From Sphaerisporangium rufum (GTDB taxonomy: Bacteria > Actinomycetota > Actinomycetes > Streptosporangiales > Streptosporangiaceae), in assembly GCF_016863395.1 (NCBI RefSeq), contig NZ_BOOU01000012.1, positions 62,001 to 126,000 on the forward strand: a stretch of DNA of 64,000 nt, in the 5' to 3' direction. Every line of letters begins with the position of its first letter. The stretch's first letter is position 1. Under the pieces are notes generated by a model. That model was not told the DNA's origin. It saw only the letters and a list, made by a program, of their open reading frames with translations, and searched no databases. The position numbers and the translations under genes were made by a program. This document shows, piece after piece, positions 343 to 10,667 of the stretch.

Positions 343-2664
343 GTGGCCGGGGGCGACGAGAACCGGAAGCGGTCCGCCGCCGCTGCCGGCGAGATTCCGC
401 GGCCGCCTGCCGCCGGTGCCGATGAGGATCCGAAGCGATCTCCCGCCGGTGGCGAAGAGCGGCCGGCCCCGGCCTTCGCACCCTCGCAGGGTTCTCCAGG
501 TCGCCACGGTCCGCCAGGTGGTGACGGCGGCCGGCAGCCGTCCGCGGCCGGAGAGGACCGCCCGGCCGGCGGAAACGACATCAGCGGGACGGTCGCGGGC
601 CCCGCGGTCCAGGCACGCGCCATCCACGGCGATGTGCGCATCACCGTCGGCGGGCGCCCGGAGACACCGGTCCCGGCGCAGCTGCCCCCCGCCCCCGCGA
701 TCTTCGTCGGCCGGGACGCCGAGCTGGCCGGACTCGACCGGTTCCTCGCCGAGGGCGGGCGCGCGCCGGACGCCCCCGCCGTCGTGGTCGTCACCGGGCT
801 CGGCGGCGTCGGCAAGACCTCGCTGGCGCTGAGCTGGCTGCACCGGGTGCGCGACCGTTTCCCCGACGGGCAGCTGTACGTCGACCTGCGCGGCCCGGTG
901 CCGCCCGGCGAGGTGCTGGAGCGGTTCCTGCGCGCGCTCGGCACGCCGCCGGAGCACCTGCCGTCCACCCTGGACGAGCAGGTGGCGGCGTTCCGCACCG
1001 CGGCCGCCGGCCGCCGACTGCTGATCATGCTGGACAACGCGATCTCCGCCGCCCAGGTCCGCACCGTACTGCCCGCCTCGGGTCACGGCCTGGTGCTGGC
1101 CACCTCGCGGGCGCGGCTGTCCGGGCTGGTGGTCGAGGGCGCCCGGTACGCCGACCTGGACCCGCTCGGCCCGGACGCCGCCGTCGACCTGCTGCACCGG
1201 CTGGTCGGCGGCGAGCGGGCCCGCGCCGAGCCGGCCGCGGCCGCCCGCTTGGTCGCGCTGTGCGGACGGCTGCCGATCGCGGTGTGCGCCTCGGCGGCCC
1301 GGCTGGCCCGGCGCCCCCGGCTGCCCATCGCGAGCCTGGTCGGCGAGCTGGCCGACGCCCGGCACCGGCTCGCTGTCCTCAGCGCGGACGACGAACTCTC
1401 CCCGCGCGCGGCCTTCGACGTCTCCTACGCCTCGCTCGCCGCCGACGAGGCCCGGCTTTACCGCATGCTCGGCCGGCATCCCGGCCCGTCGTTCGCGCCC
1501 GGCGCCGCCGCCGCGGCGGGCGGGCTGCCGGCGGAGACGGCGCGCCGCCTGCTGGACCGGCTGGCCGCCGCCGGCCTGGTCACCGCGGAGGCCGGCGGCC
1601 GGTTCCGGCTGCACGACCTGGTCCACCTGCACGCCCGGGAGACCTCGGCCGCGGCCGATCCGCCGGAGCTGCGCGCCGCGGCCTTCACCCGGATCGCGTT
1701 CTGGTACCTCCGCACCGCGGTGGCCGCCGACCTGGTGGTGGTGCCCGGCCGGTGGCATCTCGGCCCGATGTACGAGCCCGCCAAGGCGGCGCCGCCGGCC
1801 TACGACGGCCCGGCCGCCGCGCTGGACCGGCTGGACGACGAGCTGCCGAACCTGCGCGCCCTGCTCGGCCAGGCCCACGAAGAGGGCCGGCATGACCTGG
1901 TGTGGCAGCTCTGCGAGGCACTGTGGGGGCTGTTCCTGCACCGCAAGCACTACGCCGCCTGGGTGGAGACCCACGAGCTCGGGCTCGCCTCGGCGCGGGC
2001 GTGCGCCGACCCGCGGGCCGAGTCCCGCATGCTGGGCGCGCTGTCGGTGGCGCACCTCAACCTGCGAAACTTCGAGCGGGCGCTCGCCCTGTCCCGGCGG
2101 GCCGCCGCCCTGGAACGGTCCGCGGGGTCCGCGCTCGGCGAGGCCGCGGCGCGGGAGCGGATCGGCCTGGCCTGGCTCGGCATGCACCGGCCGGAACGCT
2201 CGATCGAGGAGTTCACCCGGGCCCGGGCGATCCACCAGGGCCTCGGCCGGCGCCGGGGGATCGCGCTGATGACCCGGCGGCTCGGCGAGGCCTACCGCGA
2301 CACCGGGCGGTACGACCTGGCGGCCGCCCACCTCGCCGAGGCCTGCGGCGTCTTCCGCGACCTCGGCGAACCCTACCTCCAGGCCCGCACCCTGACCGAG
2401 CTGGGCCGGGTGCATCTGCTGGCCGGCCGGCCGCGGCCGGCGGCGGGCGCCCTGGCCCGGGCGCTCGCCCTGGTGACCGGGCTCGGCGCGCGGTACGAGC
2501 AGGCTCAGATCCGGCTGCTGCTGGCGGAGCTGGCGACGGCCGGCGGCGACCCGGCCGGGGCCCGCGCCCACCTGGAGACGGCGCTGGAGATCTTCACCGA
2601 GCTCGGCGCGCCGCAGCGCCAGCGGGTCCGCTGGCTCCTGGACGGCCTGCCGCCCGGGCGGTGA
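343..2664 (+). CDS. NB-ARC/TPR (STAND, NLR-like) ATPase with RHIM-like amyloid motif
   Basis: 773 residues from a GTG start, with AGGAG eight bases upstream. Residues 1-77 are a disordered Gly/Pro/Arg/Glu-rich tail. Residues 78-100 form a compact hydrophobic motif (NDISGTVAGPAVQARAIHG followed by DVRI) resembling the RHIM/PP-like bacterial amyloid signalling sequences (BASS3 type) found on actinobacterial NLRs. An NB-ARC ATPase follows: Walker A GLGGVGKT (152-159), Walker B LLIMLDN (226-232) and a GLPLA-like motif (GRLPIAV). Next come a winged-helix region (FRLHDLVHLHAR) and about six TPR-like repeats to the C-terminus. Known STAND proteins bind a signal through the repeats, oligomerise and trigger an effector through the N-terminal motif. 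A cytoplasmic defence or signalling role is inferred. No effector with a matching motif is visible, but only 342 bases upstream are present. Confidence 0.88.
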   Translation: MAGGDENRKRSAAAAGEIPRPPAAGADEDPKRSPAGGEERPAPAFAPSQGSPGRHGPPGGDGGRQPSAAGEDRPAGGNDISGTVAGPAVQARAIHGDVRITVGGRPETPVPAQLPPAPAIFVGRDAELAGLDRFLAEGGRAPDAPAVVVVTGLGGVGKTSLALSWLHRVRDRFPDGQLYVDLRGPVPPGEVLERFLRALGTPPEHLPSTLDEQVAAFRTAAAGRRLLIMLDNAISAAQVRTVLPASGHGLVLATSRARLSGLVVEGARYADLDPLGPDAAVDLLHRLVGGERARAEPAAAARLVALCGRLPIAVCASAARLARRPRLPIASLVGELADARHRLAVLSADDELSPRAAFDVSYASLAADEARLYRMLGRHPGPSFAPGAAAAAGGLPAETARRLLDRLAAAGLVTAEAGGRFRLHDLVHLHARETSAAADPPELRAAAFTRIAFWYLRTAVAADLVVVPGRWHLGPMYEPAKAAPPAYDGPAAALDRLDDELPNLRALLGQAHEEGRHDLVWQLCEALWGLFLHRKHYAAWVETHELGLASARACADPRAESRMLGALSVAHLNLRNFERALALSRRAAALERSAGSALGEAAARERIGLAWLGMHRPERSIEEFTRARAIHQGLGRRRGIALMTRRLGEAYRDTGRYDLAAAHLAEACGVFRDLGEPYLQARTLTELGRVHLLAGRPRPAAGALARALALVTGLGARYEQAQIRLLLAELATAGGDPAGARAHLETALEIFTELGAPQRQRVRWLLDGLPPGR

Positions 2665-3091
2665 CGATCATCATGATCCGGATGCCCTGTCCAGATGACG
2701 GGCGGCCGGCGACGAGCGTGGCGGTGCCGAGCGTGGCGGTGCCGAGCGCCGTAATGCCGAGCGTGGCGGTGCCGAGTACCGGCAGCCGGTCGCCGCCGGC
2801 CAGCCAGGCGTGCGCCGCCGAGGCGGCCGCCCAGGCAGGTCCGGCGAGCCGGACGGCCTGCCCGTCCCGGGCCCGGACCAGGCAGCCGCCGGCGCCGGTC
2901 GGAGCCGCGGCCACCAGGCAGCCCGGGAACCGCGCGAGCGCCGCGGCCGGGCCGCCGGGATCGGCGGCCGGGCAGACGAGCACGTCGGCCAGCGGCGACC
3001 AGGCCGCGTCGTCCGCCGTCGCGCTGAGGTGCTCGTCCACCAGGACGGTGCCGGCCGCCCGGCCGGTCACCACCACCCGGACCCGGTTCAC
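2594..3091 (-). CDS. Unknown small protein, translationally coupled to the GT-B-like gene
   Basis: About 165 residues. The GTG start lies inside the GTGA overlap with the stop of the upstream gene (stop 3088-3090), the usual sign of translational coupling. The first 110 residues have normal actinobacterial composition (RVRVVVTGRAAGTVLVDEHL...) but no family I recognise. The C-terminal third is low-complexity: a LGTAT pentapeptide repeated from a 15-bp DNA repeat at about 2715-2780, then an Arg/Ala/Gly tail. The 3' end runs 71 bases into the 3' end of the convergent NB-ARC gene, which is unusual. The stop could be misassigned only through a frameshift. The function is unknown. A role with its neighbour is suggested by coupling alone. 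Confidence 0.6.
   Translation of the reverse strand: MNRVRVVVTGRAAGTVLVDEHLSATADDAAWSPLADVLVCPAADPGGPAAALARFPGCLVAAAPTGAGGCLVRARDGQAVRLAGPAWAAASAAHAWLAGGDRLPVLGTATLGITALGTATLGTATLVAGRPSSGQGIRIMMIVTARAAGRPGASGPAGAAARRAR
2715..2780. repeat. 15-bp tandem repeat inside the small unknown gene
   Basis: About four copies of GAGCGTGGCGGTGCC-like units, the third diverged. On the minus strand they encode the repeated LGTAT block of the 165-residue protein. Confidence 0.7.
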
Positions 3092-4512
3092 CGGTGACCG
3101 CCGGTGCCGGCGTCCGGAGCCGGCGGAGCCACGGATCGCCGGCCGGGCACCGCGACCGGACCGGCCGCCGGCGCCGTGCCGGCTATCGGCGCCGCGCCGG
3201 CTATCGGGATCGTGCCGGCCATCGGGGTCGTGCCGGTCACCGGCGCCGTGCCGGTCACCGGGGTGGTGCCGGGCGTCGGGATCGGGACGTCCACCGGGAT
3301 CGGGACGGGCATCGGCGGCGGCGCGGCGGGCAGGACACCGGGCGGCTCGGGCAGTCCCAGCAGCCGGTACATCGTCCGGCGCAGCACGTCCGCGGCGCCG
3401 CCCGGGAGCGAGGTGAGCGCTGCCCGCATCCGGGTGGTGGTGTCCGGTGACCACCGGGCCGCCGCCCGGTCGAGCTGCGCCGGGATCGGCGTGCCGGGCG
3501 CCAGCGGCTCGGCCACCGAGGCCAGCCGGGCGAAGGCGGACCCCGGTAGTACGTTCCGCGCCGCGAACGGCGCGAGCAGCACCGGCCGGCCGAGCGCGGC
3601 TCCGTAGACGGCGATGGAGCTGCGATCGGCGAGCAGCACGTCGGCGGCCACCAGCGCCGCCCGCCAGCCCTCCTCCGGCGGGAGCAGTACGGCGCCCGCG
3701 CGGGTGCCGGCGGAGAACCACGACCGGATCTGCCGCCGGCCGTGCACCACCCAGGTGTTCGGGTGCAGCACGACGACCACCCGGACCCCGGCGCCCGCTG
3801 CGCCGCCCGCCAGCCGGACCAGCAGGTCGGGGTGGCGGGCCAGCAGCGAATCCGCGCCGAAGTGCGAGGAGACCATGAGCAGCCGCTGCCCTGGCCCGAC
3901 ACCGAGGGCCGCCCGGTACGCCGCCCGGTGCGGCAGGCCGGCCAGCAGGCGGTCGAAGCACAGGTCGCCGGCCACCACCGCGGCCGGTAGCGCCGCCGGG
4001 CATTCCTCGGCCAGCACCCGGCGGTGGTCCTCATGCCCGAGCATGATGGCCGCCGGGATCACCCGCCCGTGCATGGTCATCCCCTGGAGTCCCAGTCCGT
4101 TCACCGCCTGCGGCGCCGGCGGCCCGTACCCGGCCTCTCGGGGCACGTAGTAGTTCGGCCCGGCGCCGTGAAAGACGGTCATCACGGGGGCGCGCAGCCG
4201 GTCCAGCATGCCCTGCCCGGCCGCCACCGCCAGGTCGAACGGGGTCTCGGCCGCCTGCGCCCACGGCATGACCAGCGCCCCCGTGGTGCTCAGGAACTCG
4301 TGCGCCCCCCGCGCCAGCCGCGACGACGGCGGCACGGTGTAGACGACCTGGATCCGCCGGTCCTCCTCGATGAGCGGCGCGTGGTCCATCAGCCGCGTCG
4401 CGCCCGCCAGATGGTGCGCCACCATCACCGCGGTGCGCCGCACGCCGTGGGTCTCCGCCGCGGTCGCCTCCGGAGAGAACGGCCCTCGCAGCTGCTCCTG
4501 CCCGCACGTCAT
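3088..4512 (-). CDS. GT-B-like glycosyl/glycerophosphotransferase-like protein with Pro/Thr-rich tail
   Basis: 474 residues from the ATG at 4510-4512, which has GGGAG about nine bases upstream. The longer reading back to 4662 lacks a site and is Gly/Arg noise. The N-terminal half (RRTAVMVAHHLAGATRLMD, DLAVAAGQG, VFHGAGPNYY) and C-terminal half (LMVSSHFGADSLL, VVVLHPNTWVVHG, LVAADVLLADRSSIAVYGA) look like two Rossmann-type lobes. The LLADRSS segment resembles the acceptor/donor site of CDP-glycerol glycerophosphotransferases and GT-B glycosyltransferases, so a cell-envelope transfer reaction is inferred with low certainty. The last 80 or so residues are Pro/Thr-rich six-residue repeats encoded by an 18-bp DNA repeat. 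No signal peptide or membrane segment is present. The small gene downstream overlaps by four bases. Confidence 0.7.
   Translation of the reverse strand: MTCGQEQLRGPFSPEATAAETHGVRRTAVMVAHHLAGATRLMDHAPLIEEDRRIQVVYTVPPSSRLARGAHEFLSTTGALVMPWAQAAETPFDLAVAAGQGMLDRLRAPVMTVFHGAGPNYYVPREAGYGPPAPQAVNGLGLQGMTMHGRVIPAAIMLGHEDHRRVLAEECPAALPAAVVAGDLCFDRLLAGLPHRAAYRAALGVGPGQRLLMVSSHFGADSLLARHPDLLVRLAGGAAGAGVRVVVVLHPNTWVVHGRRQIRSWFSAGTRAGAVLLPPEEGWRAALVAADVLLADRSSIAVYGAALGRPVLLAPFAARNVLPGSAFARLASVAEPLAPGTPIPAQLDRAAARWSPDTTTRMRAALTSLPGGAADVLRRTMYRLLGLPEPPGVLPAAPPPMPVPIPVDVPIPTPGTTPVTGTAPVTGTTPMAGTIPIAGAAPIAGTAPAAGPVAVPGRRSVAPPAPDAGTGGHR
3177..3270. repeat. 18-bp tandem repeat encoding a Pro-rich tail
   Basis: Five or so imperfect units of the type CCGGCTATCGGGATCGTG. 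On the minus strand they encode hexapeptides such as TAPVTG, TTPMAG and TIPIAG at the C-terminus of the GT-B-like protein. Confidence 0.75.
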
Positions 4513-4595
4513 GATCTTCTCCCTGCTCGCCGGCGGCCCCCTCGCGGAACCACCGGCGGCAGCATGCGAGCCGGCACCGGATGAAGACCTTGCGG

Positions 4596-4679
4596 TCAGG
4601 TGGACGCCGACCTTGCCGAGTCCTCCGTTCTCACCCGGCCGGCGGTCATGAACCCGCCGCATTCGGAGTTTTTGATCAT
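4596..4679 (-). CDS. Candidate 27-residue peptide ahead of the GT-B-like gene
   Basis: An ATG at 4677-4679 has AAGGA at a suitable distance upstream and opens a 27-codon frame beginning MIKNSECGGF and ending before the GT-B-like gene, 83 bases away. The same frame stays open further upstream to 4868 (90 codons, MFSTMMAVTMGALF...), preceded by a G-rich stretch that could also serve as a binding site. Codon use is less GC-biased than in the neighbours, so either reading could be chance in a low-GC stretch. No family recognised. Confidence 0.25.
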   Translation of the reverse strand: MIKNSECGGFMTAGRVRTEDSARSAST

Positions 4680-5134
4680 GAAGATGTCCTTGCCTTTGCC
4701 CTCGACGGCGGCCGCGACAAGTGATGTCCCATATGTAGCAAAAGCGACATTGGTTAGGGTGCTGGTGGTTTTATGCTGACATGGAGGCAAGTGCGTAATG
4801 CTCGTGGCGGTGGTCGGTGACATATGGAAGAGTGCGCCCATGGTCACGGCCATCATGGTGCTGAACATGTAGATTGGTGCCCCCTGGTGGGTTTAGGTGC
4901 ATAGATCCCTCTTGATCTACCAAAGCTGATCATATCTAGATAGCGGAGTTCCGCAACCCTGATTGAGTTCTCTCCATATCGAGATTCACGTGGCAGGTAA
5001 ATGCGATTTTCAGTCTTCTGTTTGCTTCAGTAAGCGAAGTTAGCGATAAATCGGCATTGGACCGATGCGTAGCCATATGTCACGCTTTCAGAAAGTTGCC
5101 GATCCGGGCGTGGGGAGACACCGGAGGGGGCGGA
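4680..5134. promoter_or_regulatory. Relatively AT-rich divergent intergenic region upstream of the SARP gene
   Basis: About 450 bases that are clearly richer in A/T than anything around them (for example 4870-5060). They lie between the divergent GT-B-like operon and the AfsR-like gene, so both promoters should be here. Short inverted elements are visible: an ATCTAGAT palindrome near 4933 and ATCGG/CCGAT arms at 5050-5066. AGCGA occurs twice nine bases apart at 5033-5046. I cannot assign -35/-10 boxes with confidence. The composition could mark horizontal transfer or a dense regulatory region. Confidence 0.5.
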
Positions 5135-8100
5135 GTGGACTTCAGGCTGCTCGGTCGTGGCGTGGGGATCGTCTTGGACATCGGCGGGCGCAGCCACCCG
5201 CTCGGCACGCCCCAGCAGCAGATCGTGCTGGCGAGCCTGCTGCTGGACGAGGGCGGGCATGTCCCGGCGGACATCCTGATCGGCCGGCTGTGGGGTGATC
5301 ACCCGCCGCGCAAGGCCTCGGACAACCTGCACAGCGCGGTGTCCCACGTTCGCCGCCGGCTGCGCGAGATCACCGGAGACGGTGTCCAGATCGTGGTCAA
5401 GGGGGGTACCTACGCGCTGACCCTCGGCTCGGCCAAGGTCGACCTCCACCAGTTCCGCCGGTTGCGCCGCCGGGCGCTGGCGGTGGAGCGTAGTGGTGAT
5501 CCCGAGCTTGGCATCCGGCTGCTACGCGAGGCGGAACGGCTGTGGCCGGGCGACGCTCTGGCCGGACTGCCCGGCGCCTGGGCCGGCCGGATGGCGGGCT
5601 GGCTCGCCGAGGAACGCGCCGGAGCCCGGCGTGAGCGGATCGAGCTGGAACTGAGCCTGGGCCGGCATGCCGAGATCCTGGATGAGCTGCGCGGGCTCAC
5701 CGCCCGGCATCCGGCCGACGAGCCGTACGCCGCCCAGCTGATGACGGCCCTGTACCTGGCCGGCCGGCGGGTGGACGCGCTCGACGTCTACCGGCGCACC
5801 CGACGCCACCTGATGGACGAGCTCGGTACCGAACCGGGACCGGTGTTGCGCGAGGCGCACATGCGCGTACTCAACGGCGCCCCCGACCTCGCGGCCACCG
5901 CGGCCGGCCGGACGGCGGACCCCGGATCCACGCCGAACACCCTGCCCCGCGACATCCCCCACTTCACCGGCCGGCAGCCGGAGATCGCGGCGGCGAGCGC
6001 GCCGCCGGACGGCACGCGGGCCGTGGTGATCCAGGGCATGACGGGAGTGGGTAAGACGGCACTGGCCGTGCATCTGGCCCACCGCTCGACCGGCCGGTAT
6101 CCGGACGCCGCCCTGTACCTCGACCTGCGCGCGCACGACCCGGTGCGGCCGCCGCTGGACACCGCGGCGGCCCTGCTGGAACTGCTGCGCATGCTCGGCG
6201 TCGCTCCAGCGGCCGTACCCGCGTCCCTGGGCGCACGGGCCGTGCTGTGGCAGGCCGAGCTCGCCGCGCGGCGGGCCGTCGTGGTGCTGGATGACGCCGC
6301 CGGCCCGGAGCAGGTGGCACCACTGCTGGGCCGGGCGTCGTCCAGCCTCGTCATGGTGACCACCCAGGCCCGGTTCGACGGGACGGCCGGGATCCGCCGC
6401 ATCTCCCTCGGGGTGCTCCCGCCCGCGGACGCCGCGGCGCTGACCGAACGGCTGGCCGGTGCGGGGGCCGACCCTGGACGAGTCGATGAGGTGGTGCGGC
6501 TGTGCGGCGGCCTGCCGCTGGCCATCACGCTGTGTGCCGGGCGCCCGTCGCCCGCGGGGCCGGACCGGGAGTGCCGGGACGGCGACTCGCCGGCCCGCCC
6601 GGAGATGAGCGCGGGCGCCGGGCGGCCTGGCCGGATCGCGCGTCATCGAGCGGCGCCATGGGACCGTTCCATTCAGGACGCCCTGCCGGAGGTCCACTCG
6701 GCGTTCGAAATTTCCTACCGGACGTTGCCCGAGGAGGCGCGGGCCGCGTTTCGGCGGCTCGGTCTGTCACCGTGCCGGGACTTCGGCGAGGACCACGCCG
6801 CGGCACTGTTCGGCACCACGGTGGCGCGGGCCCGAGAGCTGCTCGGCCTGCTGCTCCGCCATCATCTGCTCCAGCAGGTGGGACCGGACCACTACCGCTT
6901 CCACGACCTGGTCGGCGCGTACGCGTACGACCGCGCATGGCGGGAGGACACCGCTGCGGAGAACCGGCGGGCGGTCACCCGGCTGCTCGACGACCGGCTG
7001 CGCATGGTGGAGGCGGCGAGCCGGGCCGTCCGCCGCCTGGATGAGAGGGCGGACGAAGGGGCGGTGGAAAGCCCCGATCCCGTGGCCGTCCGGCGCGCGC
7101 TGGCGGGGGAGTGGGGTGGCGTTCTTGCGCTGGTGCAGTGGACGGCGGAGAGCGAGGTCGGCGAGTGGCTGACGTATCCCGGCCGGTTCATGCGGTCGAT
7201 GGCGGAGTTCCTGGACACCGAGGGGTACTGGGAGGACGCCCGCACCGGGCACGGGCTGGCGCTCGTCGCCGCCCGGCGGCGGCGGGACACCGCCGGTATC
7301 GCCCGCGCCTCGCTGGACCTGGGGTTCGCGTGCTTTCGGACCGGCTGTCACCAGGAGGCCCGGGAGAACACGCAGGCGGCGATGACCCTGTACCGTTCCA
7401 TCGGTGATCGCCAAGCGGTCGCCCGTTGCCAGGATCGGCTTGGTGTCATCTGCTGGGCGACCTCCGACTACCGGTCGGCCCTGGCCTACCACGAGGAGGC
7501 GCAGGAGCGGTACCACGCGGTCGGCGACGCCAAAGGGCGGGCGGAGGCGCTCGGCCATCAAGGGATCGTCCACTTCCACCTGGGTAACTACCGGGATTCG
7601 TTGGACCTGTTCACCCGTGCTCTGGCGCTGCACCGGCACATCGGTGATCGTCGCGGGGAGGCCAAGGCGCTGAACAACGCGGGGGATGTGCGCAAGCGTC
7701 TGGGCGACCGCCGGGAGGCCGTCCGGCTCTACCGGGAATCGTTGCGGATCTTCCAGGAGATCGACGGCCGGCAGAACCACGCGATCCTCTCCGGCAATCT
7801 GGGAGATGTACGCCGGTACGAGGGCCGGTACCAAGAGGCGCTGGACTGTTACCGCAAGGCCATGGTGACCTTCCAGCAGACGGGGGACCGGCCCAACCAG
7901 GCGGAGATCCTCAACAGCATCGGCAGTACTTACCTGCGGATGGGCGGGGTGGACGGGGCGCTGGTGCACCACCAGGAGGCCCAGCGCCTGGCGGAGGAGA
8001 TCGCCGACACCTACCAGCTTCTGAGGGGGATGCTGGGGGTGGCGGGCGTGCACTGCGCCACCGGCCGGTACGCCCAGGCGCGGGACCTCGGCCGCCGGGC

Positions 8101-8305
8101 CGTCGCCCTTGCCCGGTCGATCGGTGATCTGTACCAAGAGGCCCGCGCTCATCGGCGGATGGCCGATGCCCAGCTCTGTCTGGGCGGTCCGGAAGAGGCG
8201 CGGATCTCCTGGCGACTGGCGCACGGGCTGCTGTCCCAATTGGGCCTGCCGCAGGCGGAGGAGGTTCGCGTCCGCCTCCAGGACCTGGGCGGCACCGGGC
8301 CGTGA
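5135..8305 (+). CDS. AfsR-like SARP/NB-ARC/TPR transcriptional regulator
   Basis: 1056 residues from the GTG at 5135, with GGAGGGGG just upstream. The longer ATG reading adds 26 unlikely residues. Residues 1-98 form an OmpR-type winged helix (VDFRLLGRG, LLLDEGGHVP, LIGRLWG). About 104-250 is the bacterial transcriptional activation domain (HQFRRL, HPADEPYAAQLMTALY, GRRVDALDVYRR). An NB-ARC ATPase follows with Walker A GMTGVGKT (about 301-308) and Walker B AVVVLDDA (about 381-388). The C-terminal third holds six or more TPR repeats with GDRxGEAxALNNxG-type spacing. This is the AfsR architecture: ATP-controlled DNA binding, usually activating secondary metabolism or morphological genes. No biosynthetic cluster lies adjacent, so its target may be the divergent GT-B-like operon or distant genes. 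Confidence 0.9.
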   Translation: MDFRLLGRGVGIVLDIGGRSHPLGTPQQQIVLASLLLDEGGHVPADILIGRLWGDHPPRKASDNLHSAVSHVRRRLREITGDGVQIVVKGGTYALTLGSAKVDLHQFRRLRRRALAVERSGDPELGIRLLREAERLWPGDALAGLPGAWAGRMAGWLAEERAGARRERIELELSLGRHAEILDELRGLTARHPADEPYAAQLMTALYLAGRRVDALDVYRRTRRHLMDELGTEPGPVLREAHMRVLNGAPDLAATAAGRTADPGSTPNTLPRDIPHFTGRQPEIAAASAPPDGTRAVVIQGMTGVGKTALAVHLAHRSTGRYPDAALYLDLRAHDPVRPPLDTAAALLELLRMLGVAPAAVPASLGARAVLWQAELAARRAVVVLDDAAGPEQVAPLLGRASSSLVMVTTQARFDGTAGIRRISLGVLPPADAAALTERLAGAGADPGRVDEVVRLCGGLPLAITLCAGRPSPAGPDRECRDGDSPARPEMSAGAGRPGRIARHRAAPWDRSIQDALPEVHSAFEISYRTLPEEARAAFRRLGLSPCRDFGEDHAAALFGTTVARARELLGLLLRHHLLQQVGPDHYRFHDLVGAYAYDRAWREDTAAENRRAVTRLLDDRLRMVEAASRAVRRLDERADEGAVESPDPVAVRRALAGEWGGVLALVQWTAESEVGEWLTYPGRFMRSMAEFLDTEGYWEDARTGHGLALVAARRRRDTAGIARASLDLGFACFRTGCHQEARENTQAAMTLYRSIGDRQAVARCQDRLGVICWATSDYRSALAYHEEAQERYHAVGDAKGRAEALGHQGIVHFHLGNYRDSLDLFTRALALHRHIGDRRGEAKALNNAGDVRKRLGDRREAVRLYRESLRIFQEIDGRQNHAILSGNLGDVRRYEGRYQEALDCYRKAMVTFQQTGDRPNQAEILNSIGSTYLRMGGVDGALVHHQEAQRLAEEIADTYQLLRGMLGVAGVHCATGRYAQARDLGRRAVALARSIGDLYQEARAHRRMADAQLCLGGPEEARISWRLAHGLLSQLGLPQAEEVRVRLQDLGGTGP

Positions 8306-8570
8306 CGCCGCCTCATCGCTGTCACCGGGCCGCCGTCCGGTGGCCGCGAGACCTTCACGGGCGGTCGTCGCGAGTCCGATCGCGACCGCCGAGCCCGGTC
8401 CCGGTCGCAGTGCCATCCCGGGCTGCTCCGACAAGGGTGATGGACGGCCTGGCGCGGTCACCGGTGATATGCGAGAGATAGGGCGAAGGACCGATCTATC
8501 CAGAGTTGACGGGGCTGTCCTACCATGGCGGCACATCCAACCCGCGGGTCGACATGGGACGGCGAGGCCG

Positions 8571-10667
8571 GTGACTGGTCGGGCGGGCGCGGGCGGGCTG
8601 CCCGCGGAGACGACGCGGCTGGTCGGGCGGCGGCGGGAGATCGCCGAGATCACCCGGCGGCTGCAGACGGCGCGGCTGGTCACGCTGACCGGCGTCGGCG
8701 GCGTCGGCAAGACGCGGCTCGCGCTGCGGATCGCGCGGAACGCCGGCGACGCCTTCCCGGGCGGCGTCCGGTTCGCCGACCTGTCCGGGCTGCCCGGGCC
8801 GGCGGCCCTGGGCCGGGCCGTGCGCGCCGCGCTGGCCTCCGCGGACGGCACCGGCGGCCCCATGGCCGAGCGCCTGGCCCGGCTGCTGGCCGGCCGGCTC
8901 GGCCTGCTGGTGCTGGACGGCTGCGAGCATGTGGCGGAGGCGTGCGCGTCGGTGGTGGCGGCGCTGCTGGCCGCGGTCCCGGCGCTCACCGTGCTGGCCA
9001 CCAGCCGGCGTGTCCTCGGCGTGCCCGGCGAGTCGCCGTTCCAGGTCGAGCCGCTGCCGGTGGAGGCACCGGAGGACGCCGGCCGGAACGGCGCGGGGGA
9101 CGGTGGCGGGGAGGGGGCGGTCGCGCTGTTCGCCGACCGGGCCGCCGCCGCGCTGCCCGGATTCGCGCCGACGCCGGAGGTGGCTCTGCTGTGCCGCCGG
9201 CTGGACGGCATTCCGCTGGCCGTGGAGCTGGCCGCGGCGCGGCTCGGCACGCTGACCGTCGGGCAGCTGATCCGCGGGGCCGGTGACCGGTTCGGGCTGC
9301 TCGCGGACGGCGGCCCGGCGGGATCGCCGCGGCACCGGTCGCTGCGGGCGGCGATCGGCTGGAGCCATGAGCTGTGCGCGCCGCTGGAGCGCCTGCTGTG
9401 GGCCCGGCTCTCGGTCTTCGAGCCCGGATTCGATCTGGCGGCGGTGCGGGCGGTGTGCGCCGACGCCGACCCCGGTCGCGGCCTGCCGGCCGAGCTGGTG
9501 GAGGACGTGCTGGTCGCCCTGGTGGACCGGTCGATCGTGCAGCGCGTCGACACTGGGCGGGAGATCCGCTTCCGCATGCTGGACACCGTCCGGGAGTACG
9601 GCGCGGAGCGGCTGCGCGAGCTCGGCCTGCGGGCGGCGACCCGGCGGCGGCACCGCGAGCACTACCTGGCGCTGGCCTGCCGGTTCGACCGCGAGTGGTT
9701 CGGCCCCGACCAGGTCGCCTGGCGCGCGCGGATGAGCGAGGAGCTGCCGAACCTGCGCGCCGTGCTGGACTCCTGCCTGGCCGACCCCGCCGAGCACGCC
9801 ACCGCGCTGGCGCTGGCCGGGCGGCTGGCCTACCTGTGGATGGCGTGCGGCCTGGCCGCCGACGGCCGGCACTATCTCGGCCGGGCGCTCGCCGCCGGTC
9901 ACGTGCCGGGCGAGAACCGCTGCCGGGCCTTGTGGGCATGCGCCTGGCTCGCCGATCTGCAGGGCGACCTGGACACCGCCAACGATCTGGCCACCGAGTG
10001 CCTGTCGGAGGCGTTCGCCCGGCGTGACCAGGCGGCGGCCGGCTGGGGTACGGTGTGCTGCGCCACCACCGGCCTGCACTGGGGTTACCTGGCCGAGGCG
10101 CTGGCGATGTACGAGCAGGCGCGCGCCACGCATGAGGACGGCGGCGACCGGGAGGCCGGCCTGGCCTACACCCTGGTCTGCGAGGCGTACGCGCTGACCT
10201 GCCTGCGCCGGCCGGAGCAGGCGCTGTCCCGGCTGCGCCGGCAGCGGTCGCTGAGCGAGTGCCGGGGCGACGTGTGGCTGCGCTCGTCCGGGGACCGGGT
10301 GCGCAGCCTCATCGAGCTGGACCGCGGCGACGCGCGCGCCGCCGAGCGGTTCGCCCGGGCCGCGCTGCGGGACAAGCACCGGCTGCACGACGGGCCCGGC
10401 ACCGCCGACGCGCTGTCGGCGCTGGCCGCCGCGGTGGCGTCGCTGGGCCGGATGGACCGGGCGGCGCGGCTGCTCGGCGTGCTGCGGCTGGTCGAGGACG
10501 ACTGCGGGCTGCGGGCCGGGCGGCCCCGGCCGATGGCGCCGGGCGCGCCGGCCGAGCGGCAGGCGCGGGCGGTCCTCGGCGACCGCGCCTTCGAGGCCGC
10601 CTACGACGCGGCCCGCGCGCAGGACCGGCGGGCCGCTCTGGAGTACGCCCTGGAGGAGACCGGCTGA
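8571..10667 (+). CDS. NB-ARC ATPase with winged helix and TPR-like repeats (AfsR/LuxR-like, no DNA-binding domain)
   Basis: About 698 residues if the GTG at 8571 is used. The frame is open far upstream, and an ATG at 8469 would add 34 residues. The P-loop is GVGGVGKT and Walker B is LGLLVLDGCEH. LDGIPLAVELAAARL is the GLPLA motif, and RFRMLDTVREYGAERL is the winged-helix/MHD-like region. The second half is helical repeats. The protein matches the ATPase-TPR module of the large LuxR/SARP regulators, but neither an N-terminal SARP domain nor a C-terminal LuxR helix-turn-helix is present. It may work as a partner of the upstream AfsR-like protein, which ends 265 bases before. The region between (8306-8570) shows no other gene. 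Confidence 0.82.
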   Translation: MTGRAGAGGLPAETTRLVGRRREIAEITRRLQTARLVTLTGVGGVGKTRLALRIARNAGDAFPGGVRFADLSGLPGPAALGRAVRAALASADGTGGPMAERLARLLAGRLGLLVLDGCEHVAEACASVVAALLAAVPALTVLATSRRVLGVPGESPFQVEPLPVEAPEDAGRNGAGDGGGEGAVALFADRAAAALPGFAPTPEVALLCRRLDGIPLAVELAAARLGTLTVGQLIRGAGDRFGLLADGGPAGSPRHRSLRAAIGWSHELCAPLERLLWARLSVFEPGFDLAAVRAVCADADPGRGLPAELVEDVLVALVDRSIVQRVDTGREIRFRMLDTVREYGAERLRELGLRAATRRRHREHYLALACRFDREWFGPDQVAWRARMSEELPNLRAVLDSCLADPAEHATALALAGRLAYLWMACGLAADGRHYLGRALAAGHVPGENRCRALWACAWLADLQGDLDTANDLATECLSEAFARRDQAAAGWGTVCCATTGLHWGYLAEALAMYEQARATHEDGGDREAGLAYTLVCEAYALTCLRRPEQALSRLRRQRSLSECRGDVWLRSSGDRVRSLIELDRGDARAAERFARAALRDKHRLHDGPGTADALSALAAAVASLGRMDRAARLLGVLRLVEDDCGLRAGRPRPMAPGAPAERQARAVLGDRAFEAAYDAARAQDRRAALEYALEETG

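Follow-up and report, generated by a model that had tools for sequence, protein, structure and literature searches.

Introduction

Bacterial amyloid signalosomes were first found as pairs of neighboring genes. PMC7889193 describes the BASS systems as gene pairs found chiefly in actinobacteria and cyanobacteria, in which an NLR carries the motif N-terminally and the Bell protein encoded next to it carries the same motif C-terminally; this account and that of PMC9815663 also cover the BASS-type NLR/Bell signalosomes that Dyrka et al. (2020) found in multicellular bacteria. In the parts of the published work on BASS, RHIM, and related motifs that bear on the present locus (PMC8086366, PMC7885112, PMC12261475, and PMC12881547), BASS3 is presented as the RHIM homologue, the glutamines Q113 and Q120 of the BASS3 control are given as conserved, BASS3 peptides are described from Frankia and Streptomyces, the PP pattern is given as NxGxQxGxN, the ARD triplet is linked to BASS2, and other BASS motifs are reported to form fibrils or prions.

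Here, we analyze an NLR-like receptor gene of Sphaerisporangium rufum, in a window of 64,000 nucleotides (the whole stretch of DNA considered) that is part of contig C12 of a 7.8 Mb genome. The features of the locus are collected in Table 1. Like the BASS NLR/Bell systems, this one is actinobacterial, it shows a short motif both N-terminally on an NLR and C-terminally on a small helical effector, and the genes for receptor and effector are paired in some relatives. Unlike them, it lacks an effector gene beside the receptor in the S. rufum genome, and the linked motif protein in two sister species is a membrane hairpin rather than a Bell-like protein.

Table 1. Coordinates of the Receptor Gene, Its Parts, and Its Neighbors in the Window
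Feature	Position	Strand	Details or basis
NLR-like receptor gene	343..2664	+	773 aa: tail, motif, NB-ARC ATPase, winged-helix-like region, TPR array
N-terminal tail, residues 1–77, G/P/A-rich, unconserved	343..573	+	Orthologue alignment
Amyloid-signaling-type motif, residues 78–100, NDISGTVAGPAVQARAIHGDVRI	574..642	+	Profiles, orthologue alignment
NB-ARC ATPase domain, residues 144–322	772..1308	+	Pfam PF00931, E = 3.4e-8
TPR array, presumed sensor, approximately residues 541–758	1963..2616	+	Pfam TPR_12 and other TPR models, PDB TPR proteins
Syntenic neighbor, GT-B glycosyltransferase- or CDP-glycerol transferase-like by eye	3088..4662	-	No Pfam match, no motif
Syntenic neighbor, SARP/AfsR-type NB-ARC-TPR regulator without the motif	5057..8305	+	Conserved
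Approximate place of the hairpin gene in S. album and Sphaerisporangium sp. TRM90804	8306..8524	.	Empty here

Results and Discussion

Domain Architecture of the Receptor

Inspection of the sequence places a GTG start at 343, with AGGAG at 330–334, eight bases 5′ of it. Translation and Pfam searches reproduce the reading frame, its coordinates, and the segment between tail and NB-ARC domain that had been described in the original prediction; that segment had been called isolated and hydrophobic, and it is indeed isolated, but its residues follow a mixed, partly hydrophobic β-type pattern rather than a purely hydrophobic one. The Walker A sequence GLGGVGKT was located by eye at residues 152–159 (DNA 796–819), and the TPR region matches PF13424 at E = 2.6e-15. 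The protein thus has the NB-ARC domain with Walker A and the C-terminal repeats of a STAND/NLR-like ATPase, with the short motif N-terminal to the NTPase domain.

Among solved structures, AfsR (PDB 8k60, 8jke) is closest in sequence through its ATPase/TPR part; the two proteins have an NB-ARC and TPR body in common (E = 4.5e-73 for 8k60, over receptor residues 108–601), and AfsR is also the best NCBIfam model for the receptor, at a score far under the cut-off of that model. This likeness is what speaks for an AfsR/SARP-type transcription regulator in which the N-terminal segment is a linker. The match begins, however, at AfsR residue 283, with 107 receptor residues preceding the AfsR-like region, and Pfam and PDB searches found neither a SARP DNA-binding domain nor any other DNA-binding domain within those residues. 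The part of AfsR before residue 283, which we take to be its SARP DNA-binding region, has no counterpart in the receptor, where the tail with the motif stands in its place. As the SARP-type paralogues lack the motif, and as a linker cannot explain the presence of the same motif at effector C-termini (see below), we find a regulator of this kind scarcely credible.

Conservation of Residues 78–100

Conservation of residues 78–100 in orthologues, on which the original prediction had staked its claim, is borne out by the alignment. Over residues 78–103, 21 of 26 positions are identical in Sphaerisporangium sp. TRM90804, 20 of 26 in S. album, and 19 of 26 in Streptosporangium carneum, so that this region is more conserved in the three orthologues than the flanking NB-ARC/winged-helix (197–199 of 302 identical) and TPR (194–224 of 353) regions, while identity in the tail comes to 9/42, 5/20, and 2/20 aligned residues, respectively.

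We compared by eye 37 NB-ARC loci, eight from the same genome and 29 that are the best matches of relatives. The motif lies just before the P-loop in 17 of these (the window's own locus and L034–L049), all of them without a SARP region, and was not seen in the other 20, which are mostly SARP-type. In an alignment of 16 of the 17 receptor motifs (one near-duplicate being omitted), G, QA, and G are invariant and N and V are near-invariant. No Pfam, NCBIfam, or PADLOC model covers residues 78–100, and a literature search for the motif strings gave no match.

Recurrence of the Motif on Effector-like Proteins

Two profiles were used to search for the motif: A1, built from receptor motifs only, with the window receptor as one row, and A5, built from 20 effector-side C-terminal motifs, with no receptor among them and with a Bell-like protein from contig C68 as one row. 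In the receptor's own genome, A5 gave four matches at E ≤ 1, namely the C68 protein, which is itself a row (1.2e-12), the receptor, at window positions 574–642 (1.1e-7), and, weakly, a TIR protein (0.08) and a second Bell-like protein (0.17). The corresponding search with A1, in which 150 of 281 first-look candidates were scored, returned seven matches at E ≤ 10: the receptor itself, the C68 protein (0.0068), the second small Bell-like protein (C24:134564, 0.07), the TIR protein (C24:130894, 0.11), and three matches at 3–6, one of which was read out and which we took as chance.

The C68 protein has 124 aa and the C-terminal end VANTFTGQARTVVQARDITGDITFN, and in the TIR protein (TIR_2, E = 1.7e-7) the motif likewise lies C-terminal to the TIR domain. 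We note that the label "Bell-like" was assigned from the published description (a small helical domain with a hydrophobic helix) and not by a profile, such that the identity of the Bell domain rests on description, whereas the sharing of the motif by the C-termini of Bell-like and other effector-like proteins was found directly. Among 200 family genomes, 106 contain A1 matches at E ≤ 0.01, and 97 contain relatives of the C68 protein; of 30 loci that were read, nearly all end in the motif, as judged by eye. A Bell-like profile was built from 22 of these 30 sequences, and its best PDB relative, AlbC, was set aside as weak (E = 0.0039). None of the Bell-like and hairpin proteins (the latter described below) that were scanned reaches a curated cut-off in Pfam or NCBIfam, the best match being that of a hairpin protein to DUF981 (E = 7e-4). 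It had been expected that effectors would carry the receptor's motif and usually lie next door; the motif does recur at the C-terminus of effector-like proteins and, in part of the related genomes, near a motif-bearing NLR.

The TIR gene has several features of its own. In the S. rufum genome (C24:130393–133076, read as locus L070, with the two genes at 7393–8109 and 8106–10076), it overlaps an nSTAND3-like gene, which matches PF20720 just below the cut-off (E = 4.6e-6). The C-terminus of the TIR protein carries two different motifs, GTGVQGRNIHGDV, which is like that of the window receptor, and SIHMGKGNQYNN, which resembles the start of the nSTAND3-like neighbor, MNMGPGDQHVNNYYF. Among 30 related TIR loci that were read by eye, 13 or more have both motifs.

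Genomic Neighborhood in S. rufum and Its Orthologues

The original prediction had pointed out that the effector usually lies next door and that the window edge is close by, but an effector next door is not supported in this genome. Across the window plus 20 kb of left flank, 933 ORFs are 40 aa or longer, and none but the receptor matches A1 or A5 at 8 bits or more, which rules out an adjacent effector over that whole range. The upstream gene, which ends 76 bases left of the window on the same strand, has no Pfam match and appears by eye to be low-complexity and lipoprotein-like; a similar gene adjoins the TRM90804 orthologue. The order of NLR, glycosyltransferase-like gene, and SARP gene is common to S. 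carneum, S. album, and TRM90804 and is looser in other relatives, the glycosyltransferase-like gene being kept beside the receptor in Sphaerisporangium and Streptosporangium.

Each of these three close orthologues has a motif-bearing gene nearby. In S. carneum, this is a divergent Bell-like gene with the end VSNTIGGEARIHGTVIQAGDVFGSINLGPR, approximately 0.9 kb upstream of the receptor frame, and in TRM90804 and S. album it is a small membrane-hairpin protein with VRNTVSGSVHGPVVQGRDFSGPLTF or VRNTISGSVHGPVFQGRDFTGPVTI near its end, encoded 5–6 kb away, past the SARP gene (best 19-residue hydrophobicity means of 1.9 and 2.3, respectively). The corresponding slots are empty in S. rufum, with neither hairpin gene nor motif found from 8306 to about 8524, and the motif-bearing effector-like genes that were found in its genome are unlinked to the receptor. 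A hairpin relative is present on contig C14, but it carries a different C-terminal repeat without a match to the receptor motif.

These empty slots could mean that the receptor is a relict in this strain, the local effector having been lost and the gene no longer signaling. The ORF and its Walker A are nevertheless intact and the motif has been kept, motif-bearing effector-like genes are present elsewhere in the genome, and receptor and hairpin gene also lie apart in other Sphaerisporangium: in four further genomes, a long distance separates the motif-bearing hairpin gene from the motif-bearing receptor, 71 kb in one (G001) and megabases in the others (G006, G008, and G009). Taking these points into account, we consider it unlikely that the receptor is a relict.

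The membrane-hairpin domain, GLDxADKLASVxxAFxGLAGLAL (L285–L314), is matched in 63 of 200 family genomes, and none of three members that were scanned reaches a Pfam cut-off. The C-terminal tails vary, some having the receptor-type motif and others a repeat of the GRVxQAGxDI type, and at least two hairpin domains (L310 and L312) appear by eye to be joined to NTPase-like regions.

Survey of Receptor Loci in Actinomycetes

The pattern VQA[RQ]x[IV]HG[DG][VI] retrieved 135 loci, and we examined the best 80 of them, all from actinomycetes. Because these loci were picked by a motif pattern, the receptor matches (79 of 80) follow by construction, and only the other ORFs provide new evidence. A second ORF with the motif no more than 40 aa from its C-terminus was found inside 5 kb in 22 of the 80 loci with A1 alone and in 28 with A1 or A5; three of the 20 A5 rows derive from these loci, and 22 is thus the cleaner figure. 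A motif-bearing gene inside 5 kb of the receptor, absent in S. rufum, is seen in this part of the loci, including an orthologue with the same synteny, and the motif-bearing neighbor that the original prediction had hoped for in related genomes is present in some of them. Close receptor–effector pairs in the family include those in G164, G153, G206, G108, and G019. In 52 of the 80 loci, no other motif-bearing C-terminus lies inside 5 kb with either profile; contig ends truncate 11 of the 80.

Across the 80 loci, 108 of 7,649 ORFs score at least 14 bits, compared to none of the shuffled and none of the reversed ORFs; with A1 alone, too, shuffled and reversed ORFs give no hit. In a control set of 20 NB-ARC loci with motif-less receptors, none of 892 ORFs reached this score, the flanks being 1.5 kb in this set compared to 5 kb in the survey; these control loci are mostly SARP-type, with a helix-turn-helix in place of the SARP region in at least one (L059). 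Given the conservation in orthologues, the match of the window receptor to a profile built from effectors, and these 108 ORF hits compared to zero in shuffled or reversed sequence, the segment is beyond chance.

What this body of evidence demonstrates is a sequence shared between receptor and effector rather than an amyloid, and PMC8195603 describes small adaptors linking receptors to effectors. The motif might accordingly be a homotypic adaptor making non-amyloid β-strand contacts, much as effector-associated adaptor domains do in bacterial conflict systems. At 23–28 residues it is, however, smaller than a folded domain, those adaptors are mostly α-helical, and the fibrils or prions formed by other BASS motifs point the other way. 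We hold such an adaptor to be quite improbable and return to the amyloid-type reading below.

We also asked how similar the motif cores of receptor and effector are within pairs, using 24 hand-picked pairs, 14 of which come from the 28 survey loci and ten from other loci that were read. The other 14 of the 28 survey loci were omitted by hand as near-duplicates or alike, L146 was dropped for want of an effector core, and L112 and L114 were not used. The mean BLOSUM score is 29.3 within pairs and 29.0 between pairs (p = 0.37), with no co-adaptation seen. As similarity within pairs is not above chance, sequence cannot identify the partner, and motif matching as a way of naming it was abandoned. 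Scored against the core of the window receptor, the motifs of the TIR protein, the C68 protein, and the second Bell-like protein give 37, 32, and −1, respectively, and those of the 24 effectors from other genomes range from −4 to 44.

Several of the loci contain unusual reading frames. In Micromonospora antibiotica (L235:3547–4037), a Bell-like region and a C-terminal motif lie in different frames beside the receptor, and this effector gene looks broken or misread in that assembly. At L160:209–2935 (G195) and L162:1403–3787 (G017), a Bell-like region or motif ends, or lies within, a larger ORF; these long frames may be high-GC frame artefacts rather than fusions. At L112:4997–6082 (G112:C2), two divergent overlapping small ORFs each have the motif near the C-terminus, one of them Bell-like and the other with hydrophobic stretches, and there is no receptor motif among the hits in 11 kb.

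Assignment to an Amyloid-Motif Family

The original prediction had named the segment a RHIM/BASS3-like amyloid motif on the N-terminus of an NLR. An amyloid-signaling-type motif on an NLR is what we find; its identity as RHIM or BASS3 is not supported. A motif homologous to RHIM/BASS3 would be expected to cross-seed with RHIM-type amyloids, and the two do have in common that they are short and VQ-centered, with BASS3 peptides already described from Frankia and Streptomyces. The Frankia BASS3 peptide, however, scores only 0.8 bits with the receptor profile and 2.7 bits with the effector profile, compared to 56 and 36 bits for the window receptor, which is a row of the former profile and not of the latter; taking this peptide together with an archaeal BASS3-like peptide, best-domain scores run from −0.7 to 2.7 bits. 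Furthermore, the second glutamine, seven residues from the first, is present in none of 16 receptor rows and none of 20 effector rows (one row per set was mis-anchored by the script, and by eye neither of these has Q at +7), and by eye the NxGxQxGxN pattern of the fungal PP motif is likewise absent. The assignment to BASS3 is thus unsupported, in view of the low peptide scores and the lack of Q at +7 in all 36 rows, and we dropped it. A search of the S. rufum genome with the BASS3 peptide gave no match, which carries no weight either way.

The ARD triplet linked to BASS2, with D at +3, is common in the present motif family (five of 16 receptor rows and 15 of 20 effector rows), which also tells against RHIM/BASS3, although the window receptor itself reads ARA at this point. 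Overall, we regard homology to RHIM/BASS3 as very unlikely. Possible membership in BASS2, by contrast, is a lead suggested by the recurrence of the triplet, from which the window receptor differs.

Proposed Mechanism

We have shown the architecture, the conservation of the motif, its reappearance on effector-like proteins, and the neighborhood in some relatives, and on these grounds we think it likely that the gene encodes a STAND receptor with an AfsR-like ATPase/TPR body, in which a BASS-class sequence replaces the DNA-binding domain and would template the C-terminal motif of an effector. The motif is a receptor-side BASS by architecture, and amyloid formation, templating, and cell death are what such an architecture would predict.

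In the mechanism we propose, a ligand would bind to the TPRs, and nucleotide exchange in the NB-ARC domain would be followed by oligomerization, gathering the N-terminal motifs so that they could fold into a cross-β nucleus. This nucleus would then template the same motif at the C-terminus of the effector, which would differ with the lineage (a helical protein of the Bell-like kind, a membrane hairpin, or a TIR protein), and the clustering of the effector would lead to membrane damage or NAD depletion. Since there is no adjacent effector in the S. rufum genome, the receptor would there either act in trans on an unlinked motif-bearing protein, for which the Bell-like protein of C68 and the TIR protein of C24 are candidates, or have lost its partner.

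A more speculative extension, which we put forward tentatively and think rather doubtful, is that the receptor is an orphan in a trans-wired network, in which the linked effector would be exchanged between lineages, the motif would be generic and open to cross-talk, the targets in S. rufum would be unlinked, and the TIR protein, as one candidate target, would connect two types of receptor. Such loose wiring is compatible with the finding that motif similarity is not pair-specific.

Conclusions

The class of motif is already known, and this receptor is a new member of it, for which the BASS3 label does not hold up. The part worth following is the neighbor that is missing here, together with its exchangeable counterparts in relatives. 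A receptor motif that stays conserved while the linked effector changes or is absent suggests that assigning partners by gene neighborhood overlooks part of the wiring. The Bell-like, membrane-hairpin, TIR, and effector-less loci form a natural set on which to test the specificity of templating and, if the trans-wired reading were true, the two-motif TIR protein would bring two kinds of receptor into a single response.
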